Shown: piece after piece, positions 3,583 to 54,879 of the stretch | Position numbering within the stretch: position 1 is the first letter of the stretch | How the letters are laid out: every line of letters starts with the position of its first letter | Assembly (NCBI RefSeq): GCF_963675635.1 | Contig: NZ_OY776488.1 | Location: forward strand, 599,740-663,739 | From: an uncultured Pseudodesulfovibrio sp. | GTDB lineage: Bacteria; Desulfobacterota; Desulfovibrionia; Desulfovibrionales; Desulfovibrionaceae | DNA length: 64,000 nucleotides | Direction of reading: 5' to 3' | Position numbers and translations under genes: made by a program | Notes under the pieces: model-generated | What the model was told of the DNA's origin: nothing | Databases searched by the model: none | Seen by the model: the letters and a program-made list of their open reading frames with translations, nothing else

Positions 3583-5604
3583 TTGAACAACCATATGAAA
3601 AATCTTGTCATTTGGGCTATCATCTTTGTTTTGATGGTTGTCCTTTTCAACCTCTTTAACCAACCGCCTATTCCCAAGGACACGCCGTCATACAGTGAGT
3701 TCTTGTCGATGGTAGACAGCGGCAGCGTCGCTGAAGTCAAAATCCAGGGTTCGAAGATCCTTGGCTTGAAAACATCCGGTGAGAAATTCCAGACCTATGC
3801 TCCGGACGATCCGAAGATGATCGACACGCTCATTTCCAAGGGCGTTGAAGTCAATGCGGAGCCGCCTGAAGAGTCCCCATGGTATTTGACCATGCTTTTG
3901 TCCTGGTTCCCCATGCTGTTGCTTATTGGTGTATGGATTTTCTTCATGCGCCAAATGCAGGGTGGTGGTGGCGGTGGACGCGGTGCAATGAGCTTTGGTC
4001 GATCCAAGGCCCGACTCATCAATGAGGAGACCACAAAGGTCACTTTTGAAGATGTGGCTGGTGTGGACGAAGCCAAGGAAGAGCTTGTAGAAATCGTTGA
4101 TTTTCTGCGTGAGCCCCGCAAATTCACCCGCTTGGGCGGTCGCATTCCAAAGGGTGTGCTTCTTGTCGGTGGACCCGGTACGGGTAAGACCCTACTGGCG
4201 AGAGCTGTTGCCGGTGAAGCCGGTGTCCCGTTCTTTTCCATTTCCGGTTCTGATTTTGTAGAAATGTTTGTTGGCGTTGGTGCAAGCCGTGTGCGTGATC
4301 TTTTTGCCCAAGGCAAGAAGAACGCTCCCTGCCTGATCTTTATTGATGAAATCGACGCCGTTGGCCGTCAGCGTGGCGCCGGTCTCGGCGGCGGGCATGA
4401 TGAGCGTGAACAGACTTTGAACCAGCTTCTCGTGGAGATGGACGGCTTCGAATCGAACGAAGGCGTCATCCTGGTGGCTGCCACCAACCGTCCTGATGTT
4501 CTGGACCCGGCTTTGCTTCGGCCCGGACGTTTTGACCGTCAGGTGGTTGTTCCCAATCCCGATCTTCGTGGTCGCGAACGTATTCTCAAAGTTCACAGCC
4601 GCAAGACGCCATTGTCTCCCGAGGTTAATCTTGAAGTTATTGCCCGTGGAACCCCTGGTTTCTCCGGTGCGGATCTTGAGAACCTTGTCAACGAAGCCGC
4701 TCTCGGTGCTGCCAAGCTTGGTAAGGACCGCGTGGACATGAGTGATTTTGAAGAGGCCAAGGACAAGGTCATGATGGGCGGACGTGAACGTCGTTCCATG
4801 ATTCTTTCCGATGAAGAAAAGCGGACAACCGCATACCACGAAGCGGGTCATGCACTGGTGGCAAAACTGCTGCCCGGTACAGATCCAGTGCATAAGGTTT
4901 CCATTATTCCGCGTGGTCGTGCCCTTGGTGTAACCATGCAGTTGCCCGGTGAAGATCGGCATAACTATTCGAAGGAGTTCCTTCTCAAGAACATGGCCGT
5001 TCTCATGGGTGGCCGTGTGGCTGAAGAACTCGTTCTCAATCAACTGACCACGGGTGCGAGCAATGATATTGAACGCGCCACCAAGACCGCGCACAGCATG
5101 GTCTGCATGTGGGGTATGTCTGAAAAGTTTGGTCCCATAAGCTTTGGCGACAATCAGGAGCAGGTTTTCCTGGGTAAGGAACTTATCCATAATAAGGACT
5201 ACGGCGAGGATACAGCCAAGCTGATTGATTCCGAAGTTCGCCGGTTCGTGGATGAGGCTTATGAAAAAGCGACTGAGTTGCTCAAGGCGAACGGCGAAGC
5301 TCTCGAGGCCATTTCGCAGGCTTTGCTCGAACGCGAAACCATAACCGGCGCAGATATTGATCTGCTCATGGAAGGCAAGGAATTGCCGCCCATGGAGCCC
5401 GCCAATGGTTCCTCCTCAAACGGTTCCTCTTCGACTGGGACTCCTGGTGGGTATACGGCCGATGGTCGTGCTACCGAAGAGTCGGGTCCCGGATACAAGC
5501 CTGTCCGTGAAGAATCTGACGACAAGGGTGAAGATTTCATCCTTGAAGATGAGGATGCAAGCAAAGGTCCTGATGGAGACGGTGGAGAAAATAAGGTTCA
5601 ATAA
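3583..5604 (+). CDS. ftsH: ATP-dependent zinc metalloprotease FtsH
   Basis: Membrane-anchored AAA+ protease that extracts and degrades membrane and regulatory proteins. Two membrane segments (about residues 8-26 and 104-121) flank a short periplasmic domain. A Gly-rich linker follows, then the AAA domain with Walker A GGPGTGKT (196-203), IFIDEIDA (Walker B) and the arginine-finger region, then the zinc site HEAGH (419-423). Length 673 aa, with an acidic Ser/Gly-rich tail of about 60 residues. The start is TTG 3583, because GGAGG at 3570-3574 lies 8 bases upstream; the next ATG (3595) is too far from it. folP follows after 10 bases. Confidence 0.97.
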
Positions 5605-5614
5605 TCGGATTACA

Positions 5615-6460
5615 ATGACGATGATTGATACAACTTGGACATTGAAGGGGGGCAGGGTCTTGGGACCGGCCCCCTTTTTTATTGCCGGTATTGTGAACGT
5701 GACACCGGATTCCTTTTATGACGGCGGTACACATAGTGATGCGCATTCCGGTGTGGTCCACGGTCTGGAATTGGCGCGGCAGGGGGCGGATATTCTGGAC
5801 GTGGGCGGAGAATCCACCCGTCCTTATGCCGCTTCAGTGTCAGAGGCCGAAGAGCTGGAGAGAGTCATTCCGGTTATTCGCGGGTTGGCAGAAGCCGCCC
5901 CTCAGGCCGTGATCTCCATTGACACATACAAGGCCAAGGTTGCAGCCAGCGCATTGGAAGCCGGAGCCGATATTCTCAATGACGTTTCTGCTTTTCGTTT
6001 TGAGCCAAAACTCCTTGATGTCATTGCCGAATATAAACCGGGATATGTCCTCATGCACTCTCTTGGTCGTCCCGAAGATATGCAGGATGAACCTCGATAT
6101 GATGACGTGGTTGGTGAACTGTTGTCTTTTTTCGAAGAACGGCTGACAATGCTGGAGAAGGTCGGATTACCCATGGATCGTGTGACCCTTGATCCCGGCA
6201 TCGGTTTCGGTAAGACGTTGGAGCAAAATCTTTTGATTTTAAGAAATGTCGAGCGAATCATGGGGTTGGGTTTTCCTGTGTTTATGGGACTGTCCAACAA
6301 GTCACTGTGGCAGGGGCTTCTCGGGCTGGCTGTGGGGGAGAGGCAAAATGCGACCCAGGCGGCCACGGCAGTATTGGCGGCAAGGGGTGTGCCCATTCAT
6401 CGTGTGCATGAGGTTGCGCTTGCACAGCAAACATTGACCATTGTTCGTGAATTAGCGTAG
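5615..6460 (+). CDS. folP: Dihydropteroate synthase
   Basis: Joins p-aminobenzoate to hydroxymethyl-dihydropterin pyrophosphate in folate synthesis. Motifs: GIVNVTPDSF near the N-terminus, DVGGESTRP, DILNDVSAFR and DPGIGFGKT; the enzyme is a TIM barrel. The frame is open far upstream inside ftsH, but homology begins only after MTMIDTTW, so I use ATG 5615 (281 aa); ATG 5621 is an alternative. The ribosome-binding site is weak, which suggests translation coupled to ftsH 10 bases upstream. cdaA follows after 8 bases. Confidence 0.95.
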   Translation: MTMIDTTWTLKGGRVLGPAPFFIAGIVNVTPDSFYDGGTHSDAHSGVVHGLELARQGADILDVGGESTRPYAASVSEAEELERVIPVIRGLAEAAPQAVISIDTYKAKVAASALEAGADILNDVSAFRFEPKLLDVIAEYKPGYVLMHSLGRPEDMQDEPRYDDVVGELLSFFEERLTMLEKVGLPMDRVTLDPGIGFGKTLEQNLLILRNVERIMGLGFPVFMGLSNKSLWQGLLGLAVGERQNATQAATAVLAARGVPIHRVHEVALAQQTLTIVRELA

Positions 6461-6468
6461 TCAAAGAT

Positions 6469-7218
6469 ATGTTTGAGCTTTTCGGAATTCAGATCACTTG
6501 GAGGGTCCTGCTCGATATAGGGCTGGTCGCCTTCATTTATTATAATCTCATTGTGCTCGTAAGGGGTACCAGAGCTGCTGCCGTTCTCTATGGAATGGTT
6601 GTCGTGCTGGTGATCTACTACGTGTCCGATCTGTTCAATTTGTATACTCTCAAAACTCTGCTCGGAGAGTTCCTGACATCCATATTTCTCATTGTGGTCA
6701 TTTTGTTCAAGACGGACATTCGCAAGGCTCTCGCAAGCGTTGGTACCAAGCGATTCTGGACAAAATCCCAGGTTCGTGACGATACGTTGGAAAAATTGAT
6801 TCGTGCTGTTATGAGCATGTCCGAAAGCAATACCGGCGCAATTATTGTTATTGAAAAGAATATGCCGCTTGGTGACATCATTGAGCGCGGTATCGAGTTG
6901 GATGCAAAGGTGAATACAGAGCTTCTTGAAACTATTTTTGTGCCTGAAACTCCCTTGCACGACGGAGCCGTTATAGTGCGTCGTGACAGGGTGGTTGCGG
7001 CTGCATGTATTTTGCCTTTGTCCAGCAAGTTGCGGGGGCAGCCCATGTACGGAACACGGCATCGGGCCGCACTCGGTATCAGCGAAGGCTCCGATGCCAT
7101 CACCGTAGTTGTTTCTGAGGAGCGCGGTGAAGTCTCGGTGGCCATGAACGGACGCCTGACGACCAGTCTGGATGAAGTCCGCCTGATGCGTGTGCTCAGG
7201 AATGCACTGGGACGATAA
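6469..7218 (+). CDS. cdaA: Diadenylate cyclase CdaA (c-di-AMP synthase)
   Basis: Makes cyclic di-AMP from two ATP at the inner membrane. About three hydrophobic segments occupy residues 1-75. The DisA_N domain follows, with its active-site motifs DGAVIV (about residue 165) and RHRAALG (about residue 198). Length 249 aa, a little under the usual 270. It is followed by a YbbR-domain protein and glmM, the cdaA-cdaR-glmM order well known from Firmicutes and also found in some delta-proteobacteria. The function is secure from motif plus context; regulation by CdaR is inferred from the family. Confidence 0.93.
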   Translation: MFELFGIQITWRVLLDIGLVAFIYYNLIVLVRGTRAAAVLYGMVVVLVIYYVSDLFNLYTLKTLLGEFLTSIFLIVVILFKTDIRKALASVGTKRFWTKSQVRDDTLEKLIRAVMSMSESNTGAIIVIEKNMPLGDIIERGIELDAKVNTELLETIFVPETPLHDGAVIVRRDRVVAAACILPLSSKLRGQPMYGTRHRAALGISEGSDAITVVVSEERGEVSVAMNGRLTTSLDEVRLMRVLRNALGR

Positions 7219-7219
7219 T

Positions 7220-8122
7220 ATGAGAAATTGGCAGACAGCGATATTAGCTTTGGCTTTGGCCGTTTTTACCTGGTTTCTGGTAACAGGTCGCGAGGTCGTG
7301 GAGTCATGGGTAGATATGCCGGTTGTCATGACCAACCCTCCTGAAGGGCTCATCATTGAAGACGGACTTGTGGACAAAATCCAAGTGCGTCTTCGCGGCC
7401 CCAAAGGGTTGGTTGGTAACCTTGCAACGGAAAATCTACCATATCATGTTGATGTCAGTAATCTGAAGATAGGTATCCAGGTCGTGGACATCGATGCGTC
7501 CAACATTCCTCTGCCAAGCACATATGAAATCATTGAGGTCAAACCGAATCGTTTGAAGCTTACAGTTGATCGCCGGGTTTCAAAGGAAATCGAAGTCGAA
7601 GCAGCTTGGGCCGGAGACCTGAATCCTGATTACACTTTGCAGGAGATTACCGCAGTTCCCACTCGTGTTGTCGTACGCGGACCTGAAACCGTGCTGCGTA
7701 AAATATCCAAGGCTCGCGCAGTCATGAAGGAAGATTTTCCTGAGGATGTTCCAACCTCCTGGGCTGAAGATGTCGGGCTTGAGCTTGCGCCGGAGATAGA
7801 AGCGTCTCCTGGCCAGGTTCGGGTAGAAGCCTTCTTTGCGCCTCAGACTCGTCAAATATGGGTTAAAGTCCCGCTTGAAGTACACGCTCCAGAGGGATAC
7901 AAGGCATCGGTCTCGCAGAAATTCGTACGCCTGTTGATCGAAGGGCCGATCTATCTCTTCCGTGACAATGAATATCGTAAGGATGTTGGAGTCAGTCTTC
8001 TGTTTGCAAGTGAAATGACACCTGGCAAATATGATCTGGACTATGACGTCATTCTTCCTGACGGGTGCCGGTTGGAAAAGAAGAATCCGGAAACCGTAAC
8101 AACTCTTTTGAAAAAGCAATAG
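7220..8122 (+). CDS. YbbR-domain protein, CdaR-like regulator of CdaA
   Basis: One N-terminal membrane anchor (WQTAILALALAVFTWFLV) is followed by an extracytoplasmic part with repeated YbbR-type beta domains. Phrases such as VKIQVRLRGPK-type, PTRVVVRGPE and VRLLIEGP mark about three repeats. In Firmicutes this protein binds CdaA and tunes c-di-AMP output, and the gene sits 1 base after cdaA here. I use ATG 7220 (300 aa); an in-frame start at 7190 would overlap cdaA by 29 bases. The role is inferred from the gene order. Confidence 0.85.
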   Translation: MRNWQTAILALALAVFTWFLVTGREVVESWVDMPVVMTNPPEGLIIEDGLVDKIQVRLRGPKGLVGNLATENLPYHVDVSNLKIGIQVVDIDASNIPLPSTYEIIEVKPNRLKLTVDRRVSKEIEVEAAWAGDLNPDYTLQEITAVPTRVVVRGPETVLRKISKARAVMKEDFPEDVPTSWAEDVGLELAPEIEASPGQVRVEAFFAPQTRQIWVKVPLEVHAPEGYKASVSQKFVRLLIEGPIYLFRDNEYRKDVGVSLLFASEMTPGKYDLDYDVILPDGCRLEKKNPETVTTLLKKQ

Positions 8123-47553: not shown

Positions 47554-47578
47554 CGTTGAACTGAAGCTCTAAAAATGA

Positions 47579-47613
47579 AACCCGGTTCAGCCTGATGCTG
47601 AGCCGGGTTTTTT
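47579..47613 (+). terminator. Terminator of the nuo operon
   Basis: AACCCGGTTCAGC (47579-47591), loop CTGAT, GCTGAGCCGGGTT (47597-47609) with one wobble pair, followed by T residues to 47613. Strong intrinsic terminator. Confidence 0.93.
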
Positions 47614-47972: not shown

Positions 47973-48740
47973 ATGGAAGAAAAACAGACGGCATATCGAA
48001 TTAATATGATTCTTCGAGGTGTGGGGCAAAAACTCTGGACTTCGTTTGCAGATTTGCTGCCGATCATACTGGTCATTGCCTTTTTTCAGATAGTTGTTCT
48101 TAAACAACCTTTGCCGGATATTGGTAATGTCATTTTCGGCGGTCTGCTCGTGGTATTAGGGCTGACGCTTTTCATTCAGGGGCTGGAGATGGGATTGTTT
48201 CCCATCGGTGAAAACATGGCCCATGCTTTGGCCCGAAAGGGAAGCCTCTTTTGGCTGCTGACATTTGCTTTTGCTCTTGGGTTTTCAACCACTGTGGCTG
48301 AGCCTGCCCTGATTGCAGTTTCAGCCGAAGCTGCCAGTATTGCTGCGCAGGGTAATCTTATTGCCCAGAGTGACGCCTCCATGGCACAATATGCTCTCGG
48401 TTTGCGGCTTTCGGTCGCCTTTTCGGTAGGAGTGGCTATTCTCATTGGTGTATTGCGTATTCTTCGGGGATGGCCTGTCCATTACCTCATTATCGGTGGC
48501 TACGTGATTGTCATGCTGATGACCCTGATTGCCCCGGAAGAGATTGTCGGTATCGCCTATGATGCTGGCGGTGTAACCACGTCCACGGTTACAGTCCCGC
48601 TGGTAGCCGCACTTGGAGTCGGGCTTGCCACGATCATCAAGGGGCGGAGTCCTTTAATTGACGGTTTCGGACTGATTGCTTTTGCGTCCTTGCTCCCCAT
48701 GATATTTGTCATGGGATACGGTTTGGTTGTTTTTGGGTAA
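47973..48740 (+). CDS. DUF1538 membrane protein, first half-transporter
   Basis: 255 aa, six or seven membrane segments. Two motifs shared with the next gene: [18 protein letters not shown] (about 111-128) and [20 protein letters not shown] (about 194-213), plus [14 protein letters not shown]. Those Gly/Ser/Thr-rich stretches look like re-entrant or ion-binding segments. DUF1538 proteins often carry two such halves in one chain; here they are split into adjacent paralogous genes 11 bases apart. Substrate unknown. Followed by PII-like and CBS genes. Confidence 0.85.
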
Positions 48741-48751
48741 AAGAGAGAAGC

Positions 48752-49522
48752 ATGACGATCTTGATGACATTTGGTGAAACGTTTCTTGCCACACTTCGGG
48801 ATATTCTTCCGATAGTTGGCCTGATCGTGTGTTTTCAGCTTTTCGTTCTACGGCAACCTATTCCGCATCTTCGCCGACTCGTGATCGGTGGGGTATATGT
48901 TGTACTCGGTTTGACCCTCTTTCTTATCGGACTGGAAAAGGCGCTTTTCCCGGTAGGCAAGATTATGGCTGCGCAACTTTCCAGCCCATCGTTCATTGCG
49001 CCCAGCGGCGATGTGTCCGCCTTGACCAATTGGACATCATACGGATGGGTCTATGTTTTCGCCGCAATGATCGGCTTTTCGACGACCATTGCCGAACCTT
49101 CACTGTTGGCTGTTGCCATCAAGGCGAGCGAAGTTTCTGGTGGTGTTATCAGTCAGTGGGGACTTAGGATCACTGTCGCCGTTGGCGTTGCCTTTGGCAT
49201 CTCGTTGGGTACCTTCAGAATTGTTACGGGGACACCTCTGTACATGTATATTCTGGCGGGGTATGTCATAGTTATTCTGCAAACATTTATTTCGCCGAAA
49301 AAGATCATAGCACTGGCGTATGATTCGGGTGGGGTGACGACTTCTACGGTTACCGTGCCTCTTGTGGCGGCTCTTGGCCTTGGCTTGTCCGAGGCTGTTC
49401 CGGGGAGGAATCCGGCTCTGGACGGATTCGGCCTTATTGCGTTTGCCAGCTTGTTTCCGATAATAACCGTCATGGGCTATGCACAGTATACTGATTGGGC
49501 GGCCCGCCGAAAGGCGAAATAA
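48752..49522 (+). CDS. DUF1538 membrane protein, second half-transporter
   Basis: 256 aa, paralogue of the preceding gene with the same order of motifs: [39 protein letters not shown] and [14 protein letters not shown]. About six or seven membrane segments. The pair probably forms a heterodimeric channel or transporter by analogy with fused two-copy relatives; this is inference. A PII-like regulator follows 16 bases later. Confidence 0.85.
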   Translation: MTILMTFGETFLATLRDILPIVGLIVCFQLFVLRQPIPHLRRLVIGGVYVVLGLTLFLIGLEKALFPVGKIMAAQLSSPSFIAPSGDVSALTNWTSYGWVYVFAAMIGFSTTIAEPSLLAVAIKASEVSGGVISQWGLRITVAVGVAFGISLGTFRIVTGTPLYMYILAGYVIVILQTFISPKKIIALAYDSGGVTTSTVTVPLVAALGLGLSEAVPGRNPALDGFGLIAFASLFPIITVMGYAQYTDWAARRKAK

Positions 49523-49538
49523 CATTCAGGAGAAGCGT

Positions 49539-49886
49539 ATGAGATTCAAACTCATCCTTGCATCGGTCAAGACACACATAACAGATCCCATAGTCGATGC
49601 AGCCAAAGAGGTTGGGGCCACCGGGGCAACCATTATAACAGCACGCGGGACCGGCATGCGTGAAGCACACACTTTTTTCGGTCTGACGCTGGAGGACCAA
49701 ACTGACATTGTGCTTTTCTTATTGGAAGAACACATGGTCAAACCAGTGCTGAAAGCCATCGAAACAGCAGGACAGTTCCACGAGCCGGGAACGGGGATTG
49801 CCTTTGTACTCCCTGTTGAAGATGTTATTGGCATGGAAAGTCAGATTGAGCGTTTCAAGGAAAAGGTCCGCAATACGTATTTCTAA
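49539..49886 (+). CDS. P-II-like signalling protein
   Basis: 115 aa from ATG 49539 (AGGAG at 49528-49532). Ferredoxin-like PII fold: KLILASVKTHITDPIVDAAKEVGATGATIITARGTG (first half) and FHEPGTGIAFVLPVEDVIGM, where PGTGIAF corresponds to the nucleotide-binding B loop and PVEDVI to the C-terminal strand. The T-loop region is shorter than in GlnB and lacks the modified Tyr. Not a close match to c-di-AMP receptor PstA/DarA. Likely gates the adjacent DUF1538 proteins. Confidence 0.85.
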   Translation: MRFKLILASVKTHITDPIVDAAKEVGATGATIITARGTGMREAHTFFGLTLEDQTDIVLFLLEEHMVKPVLKAIETAGQFHEPGTGIAFVLPVEDVIGMESQIERFKEKVRNTYF

Positions 49887-49924
49887 TGTGCCGGGATCGT
49901 TTCCAGGCAAAATATGGAGGAATA

Positions 49925-50320
49925 ATGTCTACACCGATAATAAGGGTACGAGATGTCATGCAGACCGAAGTGCTGAGCATCGACGGCATGGCGTCCGTCA
50001 AGGATGCGGCAGCAATGATGCGTGCCAACAACACTTCTGAACTACTTGTCAACAAGCGCAATGAAGACGACGCATGGGCGATCGTAACTGTCATGGACCT
50101 TGTTAAGGATGTCGTTGTTCCTGGTCGTTCAGGGGATGGTGTCAGCGTGTATGAGGTGATGACAAAGCCGGTTATCACTGTCCCTGCAACAATGGACATT
50201 CGATATGCGGTCCGTTTGATATATCGTACAGGAGTTCATCGTGCTCCGGTAGAGCATATGGGCGAGATTGTTGGAATGATCACTCTCTCGTCGCTTATTC
50301 TTGATAGTGAGATTCTGTAA
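49925..50320 (+). CDS. Twin-CBS-domain protein
   Basis: 131 aa, essentially two CBS domains: VRDVMQTEVLSIDGMASVKDAAAMM (first) and VYEVMTKPVITVPATMDIRYAVRLIYRTGVHRAPV (second). Such pairs bind AMP, ATP, SAM or c-di-AMP and regulate transporters and enzymes. ATG 49925 has GGAGG four bases upstream. Fourth gene of the DUF1538-DUF1538-PII-CBS set; a second sensor for the same transporter is the likely role. Confidence 0.9.
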   Translation: MSTPIIRVRDVMQTEVLSIDGMASVKDAAAMMRANNTSELLVNKRNEDDAWAIVTVMDLVKDVVVPGRSGDGVSVYEVMTKPVITVPATMDIRYAVRLIYRTGVHRAPVEHMGEIVGMITLSSLILDSEIL

Positions 50321-50384: not shown

Positions 50385-50543
50385 ATGTGGGCATATTTTT
50401 CTGCTTTTCAGGCCGTCCTGGATCTGTGGCGTAAATGCCCGGTCTGCGGCAAGGTCCAGAAGGTAAGTCTCAGCAATAAGGGAAAGACTATCACGTGCAG
50501 CAATTGCGATGCACCCATTCCTCCTGTTAAAAACAAGTTGTGA
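50385..50543 (+). CDS. Zinc-ribbon microprotein
   Basis: 52 aa: a short hydrophobic N-terminus (MWAYFSAFQAVLDLWRK) and two knuckles CPVCGK and CSNCDAP spaced 16 residues apart, as in a small zinc ribbon. AGAGG about six bases before ATG 50385. It follows the CBS gene by 64 bases on the same strand and precedes a terminator-like hairpin. No family I recognise. Confidence 0.65.
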   Translation: MWAYFSAFQAVLDLWRKCPVCGKVQKVSLSNKGKTITCSNCDAPIPPVKNKL

Positions 50544-50676: not shown

Positions 50677-51249
50677 ATGCATGAAACGAGTTTGGGCGGC
50701 ACTCTGCGTGATTATTTAAGTGGTGAAGAGATTGACGAGACTACTTTCGAGGAGTTTCGACAGTTGCTTGTCAAACTGCTTGTGGAAGAGAAAGGATATC
50801 CCAAGGAACGACTCAAGGCCAAAGTCCCTATTCTGTATTGCGTGGACGGCGAAGAGTTTGAGCGGCCTGTGGACTATGTGCTCTACAATGAGCAGGGCAG
50901 GCCGATTTTCATCATCATTTTTTGCGCAGGAAATGTAGGGACATTTGAGCGAGAAACCGTGTGTGCGGCTCGACTTATTGAAGGGGGCCCTGTTCCGTAT
51001 GCTCTGGTTACTGATACCATGGACGCTTCGTTGATGGATGTGAAATCCGGCGAGAGGATCGCCTGGAGCATGGAAGCTGTGCCTGATTACGCTGATTTGG
51101 TGGATATGGTTGCCAAGAAGGATATGAAGCCGCTTACTGACGAGCAACGTGAAATGCAGACCCGTGTGTTCCACACATATAGCGGGTTTATTTACGGAAC
51201 GTGTTGCAGTGAGTCCTGTTCATTATCTCCAAAGCCACCGAAGAAGTAA
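50677..51249 (+). CDS. HsdR N-terminal-like (restriction endonuclease fold) protein, probably catalytically inactive
   Basis: 190 aa. The order LLVEEKGYPKERLKAKVPI, DGEEFERPVDYVLYNEQGRPIFIII and FERETVCAARLI matches stand-alone HSDR_N-type proteins. The PD-(D/E)xK core expects Asp ... Glu-x-Lys after the last strand; here the strand reads IIIFCAG, so the Glu and Lys are replaced. A Cys-rich C-terminus (GTCCSESC) is unusual. No modification or specificity genes are near, so it is not part of a restriction system here. Confidence 0.7.
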   Translation: MHETSLGGTLRDYLSGEEIDETTFEEFRQLLVKLLVEEKGYPKERLKAKVPILYCVDGEEFERPVDYVLYNEQGRPIFIIIFCAGNVGTFERETVCAARLIEGGPVPYALVTDTMDASLMDVKSGERIAWSMEAVPDYADLVDMVAKKDMKPLTDEQREMQTRVFHTYSGFIYGTCCSESCSLSPKPPKK

Positions 51250-53471: not shown

Positions 53472-53514
53472 CTTTTTTGACAGGGAATGCTGACAGGCAT
53501 ATAAAGTATTGCTC

Positions 53515-54879
53515 ATGCGCGCAAAAATATTTTCTCCATATTGGCTGCCTGTCTGGTTCTTTGGCGGAACCATTCTGATCGGTGCATTCATTCTGCATCT
53601 TGATGTGAGTCATCCCGGCGGCCCACTTTCCTTTGTGGACGCACTTTTTACAACCACATCAGCCATGTGTGTCACAGGTTTGGCCGTGGTTGATACCGGG
53701 TCATATTTTTCAACACTCGGGCTGGACGTTCTGCTGGTGCTCATCCAATTGGGCGGCTTGGGTATCATGACCTTCACCACGCTTATCATCCATCTTCTTG
53801 GCAAGCATGTGTCGTTGAACGACCGTATTGCGGTTGGACAGAGCCTGTTGCGTGACCCTTCGTTTAGCCTGCCGAAATTCCTGGCGCGGGTGGTGCTGTG
53901 GACATTCTTTTTCGAAGGGGCTGGAGCATTGGCTCTCTGGCTAATGGACCCGGTGGGTTTTTCACCATATTCGGCTGTTTTTCATTCGATTTCAGCTTTT
54001 TGCAATGCTGGATTTTCCTTGTATCCAGACAGCTTGACTCAGTGGGCAGGTCATGGCGGTGTCAATTCGGTCTTTATGGTGTTGATCACAGCCGGTGGGC
54101 TTGGTTTTTATGTACTCATCGAATGTGCTTCATACTGCAAGCAATTTGTTCATCGCTTAATCCATAAAAAACGGACTATGCCGGTATTGAGCTGGCATTC
54201 GACCATTGTCCTCAAAACGTCATTTTTTCTGGTTGTTGTCGGTGCAGTCGTTATTTTCTTTGCGGAGGGGGCGGCTGGCAATGCTCCTGAAAATTTCTGG
54301 CACCATCTCTGGACCGCGCTTTTTCAGTCTGTCACCTGTCGTACTGCCGGCTTCAATACTGTAGACATCGGTTCCATGACCAATGTTTCATTGGTGTTCA
54401 TGATGTTGCTCATGATCATTGGCGGTTCGCCTGGTTCCTGTGCCGGTGGTATCAAGACGACCACATTCAGGGCTTTGTTCGGATTTGTCTGGGCGCAGTT
54501 CCGGGGACGGCAACAGGTTCAATTGGGCCGTTATGCTCTGTCACAGGGCGCGTTGAACACAGTTGTGTCGTTGACAACTATGACTTTTGTGCTGATTTTC
54601 ATTGGCACCATGATCTTGACAGCCCTCGAGAGTGGAGACAGCACCTATCTCATGGCGCGTGAAGAATTTATTCTCAATATGTTCGAAACCGTGTCTGCAT
54701 TCGGGACAGTCGGGCTTTCCACAGGGTTGACACCCATGCTTGACGATGTGGAGAAAATCACGGTTATCATTCTTATGTTCGTGGGACGACTGGGGCCGGT
54801 CTGGCTGTTGTCGGCTCTTCAGAGCTGGCAGGCCGAGCGGCGTTACAAAGTGCCCACATCCACATTGCCTTTTGGATAG
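53515..54879 (+). CDS. Potassium uptake subunit KtrB/TrkH
   Basis: 454 aa from ATG 53515 (a TTG at 53509 adds two residues). Eight or more membrane segments with four pore-loop motifs: TTSAMCVTGL, SISAFCNAGF, TCRTAGFNT and SAFGTVGLS, the duplicated KcsA-type filter of KtrB/TrkH. SPGSCAGGIKTTTF is the fourth-repeat hinge region. The next gene, 16 bases on, is its RCK subunit. Likely K+ or Na+/K+ uptake. Confidence 0.93.
   Translation: MRAKIFSPYWLPVWFFGGTILIGAFILHLDVSHPGGPLSFVDALFTTTSAMCVTGLAVVDTGSYFSTLGLDVLLVLIQLGGLGIMTFTTLIIHLLGKHVSLNDRIAVGQSLLRDPSFSLPKFLARVVLWTFFFEGAGALALWLMDPVGFSPYSAVFHSISAFCNAGFSLYPDSLTQWAGHGGVNSVFMVLITAGGLGFYVLIECASYCKQFVHRLIHKKRTMPVLSWHSTIVLKTSFFLVVVGAVVIFFAEGAAGNAPENFWHHLWTALFQSVTCRTAGFNTVDIGSMTNVSLVFMMLLMIIGGSPGSCAGGIKTTTFRALFGFVWAQFRGRQQVQLGRYALSQGALNTVVSLTTMTFVLIFIGTMILTALESGDSTYLMAREEFILNMFETVSAFGTVGLSTGLTPMLDDVEKITVIILMFVGRLGPVWLLSALQSWQAERRYKVPTSTLPFG

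Follow-up and report, generated by a model that had tools for sequence, protein, structure and literature searches.

Regulation of transport by PII proteins is the textbook case of direct metabolic control. A review of this field describes direct docking for two pairs, GlnK on AmtB and SbtB on SbtA, the latter in an adenylate-dependent manner (PMC10710835). The PII-controlled transporters in its account are those for ammonium, urea and bicarbonate together with some unnamed ABC transporters, and control seems to be limited to transporters able to act as trimers (PMC10710835). Here we examine a gene cassette in a stretch of 64,000 nucleotides (hereafter the window) from an uncultured Pseudodesulfovibrio sp. 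(contig NZ_OY776488.1, positions 599,740 to 663,739), in which genes for two DUF1538 membrane proteins are followed by those for a PII-like protein and a protein with two CBS domains. Linkage of a PII gene to DUF1538 is near universal in the loci that we examined. We found no description of this partnership in the literature searched.

The best described DUF1538 pair is UmpAB from Halomonas zhaodongensis. It was cloned through its rescue of E. coli KNabc, a strain deficient in antiporters. The pair was reported to be a heterodimer in the membrane and, in everted vesicles, to catalyse Na+(Li+,K+)/H+ antiport that was optimal at pH 9 (Meng et al. 2017, PMC5484666). The 4.2-kb insert carrying UmpAB has four reported open reading frames (ORFs), none of them PII or CBS, and the terms 'P-II' and 'CBS' are absent from the main text of the paper (PMC5484666). 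Judging from the reported ORFs, the published activity is therefore that of the antiporter alone. A previous reading of the window, made from its sequence only, had taken the substrate and role of DUF1538 to be undefined; this no longer holds, as Na+(Li+,K+)/H+ antiport has been assayed for a UmpAB pair. UmpAB has also been cited as a possible salt adaptation in a study of cable bacteria (PMC12093952), and DUF1538 is listed among families of pH adaptation in a machine-learning study (PMC13255231).

In the window, the cassette comprises five closely packed genes.

47973-48740, + strand: umpA-like DUF1538 membrane protein, 255 residues (ORF; Pfam; best NCBI model UmpA)
48752-49522, + strand: umpB-like DUF1538 membrane protein, 256 residues (ORF; Pfam; best NCBI model UmpB)
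49539-49886, + strand: PII-like protein, 115 residues, T-loop shortened and canonical ligand residues gone (ORF; Pfam)
49925-50320, + strand: two-CBS (Bateman) protein, 131 residues from its likely start (a longer ORF starts at 49886; Pfam)
50385-50543, + strand: zinc-ribbon-like protein, 52 residues, CxxC...CxxC (fifth cassette gene in the window lineage)

ORFs and Pfam matches agree on the first four, which the sequence-only reading had recognized; the interval that it gave, 47973-50320, covers these four genes and ends before the conserved fifth. As in Halomonas, the membrane proteins are encoded by two adjacent paralogous genes in the order A-B, have seven helices each and match the same Pfam family over the full domain. 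The window pair differs in scoring under the NCBI cut-offs, and in being accompanied by PII and CBS, which are not among the ORFs reported for the Halomonas insert.

Linkage of PII genes to DUF1538

Neighbourhoods of DUF1538 genes were fetched and then searched with profiles seeded from the window proteins. The genome sets may share a few members, and their counts are not summed. Within the order of the source genome, DUF1538 was found in 62 of 199 genomes, with PII beside it in 59 (58 of 61 loci, plus the contig-end locus L197); the three misses are the decayed pairs of G151 and G154 and a contig end in G069. Among named genomes, PII was present in 76 of 80 loci, and in all four misses the contig stops no more than about 35 bases from the first domain. 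Chosen as the best out of 572 confirmed loci, the 80 consequently lean to the window type. In additional genomes of the phylum the count was 20 of 23, the misses being L185 at a contig edge, L194 with a truncated gene and L195 with a match of 18 bits. Outside the phylum, we examined the gammaproteobacterial order of genome G577, which is that of the Gynuella sp. genome carrying L113 and which we take to be Pseudomonadales. The UmpB model matched 71 of its 341 genomes, and a PII gene was found in the fetched stretch in all 50 examined, chiefly the best-scoring and fused ones. In Bacteroidota, the phylum of G583 (the Saprospiraceae metagenome-assembled genome carrying L110), the UmpB model matched 7 of 148 genomes, and PII was present in all seven. 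The linkage to PII is thus near-constant in the examined loci of several phyla, which clearly contradicts the outcome that the sequence-only reading had named as refuting it, namely that DUF1538 genes would stand apart from PII and CBS genes in other genomes. Separately, in L076, L081, L084 and L085, all of one genus, a second, different PII gene lies immediately upstream of umpA.

A search was also made in the reverse direction. A profile of the ump PII, built from 19 rows drawn from the same order set, matched 62 of the 199 order genomes, 58 of which are among the 62 with DUF1538. Nine related PII matches in the order set lie away from DUF1538, and all nine loci were fetched. Five of them (L298, L299, L300, L301 and L302), from one genus, directly follow a gene for the antiporter NhaB (Pfam NhaB, E about 1e-165 to 1e-167). 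Four of these five genomes are without DUF1538, and two PII domains are present in four of the five. As a control, PII was found within about 1.5 kb in none of 30 other, best-scoring NhaB loci. Among the remaining matches, L295 has a CitMHS_2 transporter gene (4082-5512) followed by an ump-type PII gene (5516-5896), and in L303 (5058-7916) a PII-like gene precedes those for CNNM and CorA, some 4.5 kb past the ump PII of G001. Sodium/proton antiport is the main thread common to the neighbours of related PII.

The membrane pair and the PII-like protein

Both membrane proteins match Pfam DUF1538 (PF07556) with E-values of 4.5e-67 and 2.4e-67 (225.9 and 226.8 bits; gathering threshold 22.6). Against the NCBI models, gene 1 scored best with UmpA (NF041627; 366.2 bits, curated cut-off 490) and gene 2 with UmpB (NF041628; 325.2 bits, cut-off 500), the two lying adjacent, A then B. 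By sequence, the window pair is thus a member of the UmpAB family, though outside the strict UmpA and UmpB equivalogs. The two paralogs are 53% identical across 226 residues; their alignment scored 566, the highest score among 200 shuffles being 90. The motifs quoted in the sequence-only reading are present in both in the same order. Its further view that they are two halves of one transporter gains support from natural fusions, which place both halves in a single chain.

One such fusion (L274, 495 residues, alignment of 49 fused proteins) was modelled with confidence, with a mean predicted local distance difference test score (pLDDT) of 85.8 and a predicted template modelling score (pTM) of 0.87. 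In the model both halves display the same helix pattern, the helices being interrupted at or close to the AEP and D-GGVTT motifs. Since each half is predicted to have seven helices, fusion would set the two in opposite orientation. Two acidic residues in each half, E110 and D197 in UmpA and E115 and D191 in UmpB, occupy columns that are Glu and Asp in every one of the 60 sequences when both halves are aligned; in another alignment a single protein, L058, has Asp in place of Glu. When aligned to the fusion model, E110 and D197 of the window UmpA map at or near the helix breaks, and E115 and D191 of UmpB correspond to them.

The PII assignment, like that of the CBS protein, exceeds the Pfam cut-off (E 1.9e-11, 44.7 bits, cut-off 25). 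Canonical GlnB and GlnK carry Tyr51 in the T-loop and the ligand residues Q39, K90, R101 and R103; GlnK keeps a long T-loop together with these residues. In the window protein, the columns of Q39, Y51, K90, R101 and R103 hold Arg, a gap, Ile, Gly and Glu, respectively, placing it outside canonical GlnB/GlnK. Among 119 aligned single PII proteins encoded next to CBS, the Tyr51 column is a gap, K90 is replaced by Ile, Val, Leu or Met, and R101 by Gly, in all 119. Gating of PII by ATP/ADP in the canonical form, which the sequence-only reading had favoured, is therefore unsupported, as the residues for ATP and 2-oxoglutarate and Tyr51 are missing. The PII may bind another ligand, or may bind adenylates in another mode.

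Some relatives are chains of two or three PII domains. Of the 30 invariant columns of the triple chains, half belong to the middle domain (RDKLGLLRI ... EKE), while the second domain is the one with the better-kept motif in tandem chains; we infer from this conservation that one docking face would suffice in a multi-PII chain. A model of a triple chain (380 residues, 10-row alignment) had a mean pLDDT of 76.8 and a pTM of 0.79, with uncertain loops. Its domains matched GlnK structures (2j9d, root-mean-square deviation 1.9, target TM-score 0.71-0.76, E about 1e-3), and structure-search rows with lower E-values were low-TM matches to other proteins.

Proposed control of sodium/proton exchange

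Taking into account gene linkage and co-occurrence, we consider it probable that sodium/proton exchange is switched through docking of the PII-like protein on UmpAB. UmpA and UmpB would together make up one cation/proton antiporter of two pseudo-symmetric seven-helix halves, in which Na+ (and Li+, K+) would be swapped for H+ via carboxylates at or near the broken helices. The PII-like protein would be a dedicated cytoplasmic regulator docked on this antiporter, and a bound small ligand would set whether it blocks or frees exchange, in a manner comparable to GlnK on AmtB and SbtB on SbtA. In lineages that have it, the CBS protein would provide a second input, probably of the adenylate type and possibly exerted via PII.

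The cassette resembles GlnK-AmtB in that the PII gene is directly beside that of the transporter, as is also the case for an Amt-PII pair in the source genome, but Amt is of a different family of transporters, and both partners, GlnK as well as AmtB, are trimeric (PMC10710835). Likewise, SbtB is a PII-like protein docking on one transporter, as linkage and co-occurrence lead us to propose for the ump PII; SbtA, on the other hand, belongs to another transporter family, and SbtB is likened by description. As PII control is seemingly limited to trimer-capable transporters in the review's account, UmpAB would be predicted to be trimeric.

Several observations weigh against such control. The published UmpAB, going by the ORFs reported for its insert, was active in E. 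coli without PII or CBS, so that neither would be needed for transport. The window pair misses the equivalog cut-offs of UmpA and UmpB, and a Foldseek search with the fusion model found no solved fold resembling UmpAB. In the ump PII the T-loop, by which GlnK docks, is shortened. The arrangement of the genes varies in that the split pairs of G903 and G745 have only a divergent PII and G644 has PII upstream. Nor is loss of the antiporter invariably accompanied by loss of PII, since L186 retains PII beside a broken umpA (5564-7226). Fusion does not set the number of PII domains, a single PII together with CBS being present in at least 14 fused loci of the order of G577. As for the NhaB link, it is limited to one genus; the NhaB of L298, the one tested against NCBIfam, falls below the NCBI NhaB cut-offs and far above that of Pfam; and two of the nine related PII matches (L296 and L297) are by no transporter that we noticed.

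An alternative role for UmpAB would be mainly that of a membrane anchor or sensor, which captures PII according to ion flux, with PII or CBS acting elsewhere, for instance on transcription or metabolism. Membrane sequestration of GlnK by AmtB is the topic of a title cited in the review (PMC10710835). The CBS protein is without a membrane part, and a hint of a nucleic-acid target could be seen in the zinc-ribbon-like gene. We nevertheless regard this role as unlikely: no transcription regulator was noticed in the cassettes, where the survey of recurrent neighbours covered PII, CBS and the zinc ribbon alone, and related PII also occurs beside NhaB, which points to antiport as the common factor. 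We give similarly little credence to a natural substrate other than Na+/H+, in which case antiport in E. coli would be a side activity and this subfamily would move K+, Ca2+ or an organic ion under PII. The pairing of related PII with NhaB speaks against it. The exchanger likeness of the UmpAB fold model is below the helical background, and a profile comparison linked DUF1538 neither to calcium exchangers (Na_Ca_ex family) nor to NhaB. Mere co-expression to meet a shared demand, for example under salt or energy stress, with no contact between the proteins, would agree with the gain and loss of CBS between lineages, the divergently transcribed PII of L280 and L282 and the PII by the broken umpA of L186, but is highly improbable in view of the close linkage in several phyla and the additional absence of PII from the two order genomes with decayed umpAB (G151 and G154).

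Docking of PII on UmpAB may extend to a widespread PII-gated Na+/H+ system, in which a non-canonical PII senses something other than ATP/2-oxoglutarate and docks via one conserved T-loop face on a two-half antiporter of unrecognised fold, with related PII paired with NhaB in one genus. We put this forward tentatively, rating it slightly below even. If correct, a dedicated PII would act on Na+/H+ antiporters in several phyla, tying sodium and pH homeostasis to a metabolic signal. Na+/pH homeostasis would then come under a class of direct post-translational control for which the literature searched has no description.

Accessory genes and setting of the cassette

The CBS protein matches Pfam CBS in two stretches (E 4.4e-18, 65.8 bits, cut-off 24). 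For order, named and phylum loci, a CBS gene directly 3' of PII was present in 11 of 64, 69 of 80 and 5 of 23, respectively, and CBS occurred in the fetched stretch in 37 of 50 genomes of the order of G577 and in none of the seven of Bacteroidota. The CBS link is therefore lineage-specific; the association with DUF1538 proposed from the sequence alone stands in some lineages and is not general. Both genomes whose UmpB exceeds the NCBI cut-off (G913 and G739) have the order umpA-umpB-PII-CBS. The best sequence match in the PDB is CBS-CP12 (5nmu, E 3.5e-18), which is alike in its CBS pair, whereas the window protein is without the CP12 part. The first CBS motif retains its Asp in 118 of the 132 CBS proteins aligned, and the second motif varies.

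For the zinc-ribbon-like protein of 52 residues, no Pfam family scored above its cut-off. A search of 249 loci gave matches to the gene in 14, which all belong to the genera g1 and g13 of the order set and in which it is located after CBS, directly after PII without CBS (L037, L040 and L042) or by decayed umpAB (L059 and L060).

With U denoting a DUF1538 half, P PII, C CBS and a hyphen a single chain, the architectures found were U U P; U U P C; U-U P-P; U U P-P; U-U P C; and U-U P-P-P. In the order set, all 11 intact fusions of about 500 residues are paired with a tandem PII. Split and fused umpAB cassettes adjoin each other in L273, L274 and L279, each with or near PII and CBS, and in L273 and L274 an additional PII lies upstream.

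The genes of the window cassette are separated by 11 bases (umpA/umpB) and 16 bases (umpB/PII), and the CBS ORF overlaps PII by 1 base. The longest PII ORF, from 49479, overlaps with umpB, and PII was taken from 49539. Translation of CBS probably starts at 49925, considering that GGAGG is present at 49916-49920 and that most order-set relatives have 131 residues. The cassette is bounded by two features.

47577-47611, + strand: terminator-like hairpin between nuoN and the cassette (15-pair stem, T tail; consensus match)
50677-51249: HSDR_N_2 gene closing the downstream side (Pfam)

Terminator-like sites are not in excess in the region, with 4 found against 3.8 expected in shuffles. The source genome is a single contig of 3.52 Mb, 100% complete, and the window pair gives its sole DUF1538 matches. 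It has five PII matches, one of which is directly 3' of an Amt gene; this Amt ammonium transporter gene followed by PII (L304, 5861-7606) provides a built-in comparison. Within the window, a gene for a TrkH-type potassium transporter is present at 53509-54879, about 3 kb downstream of the cassette.
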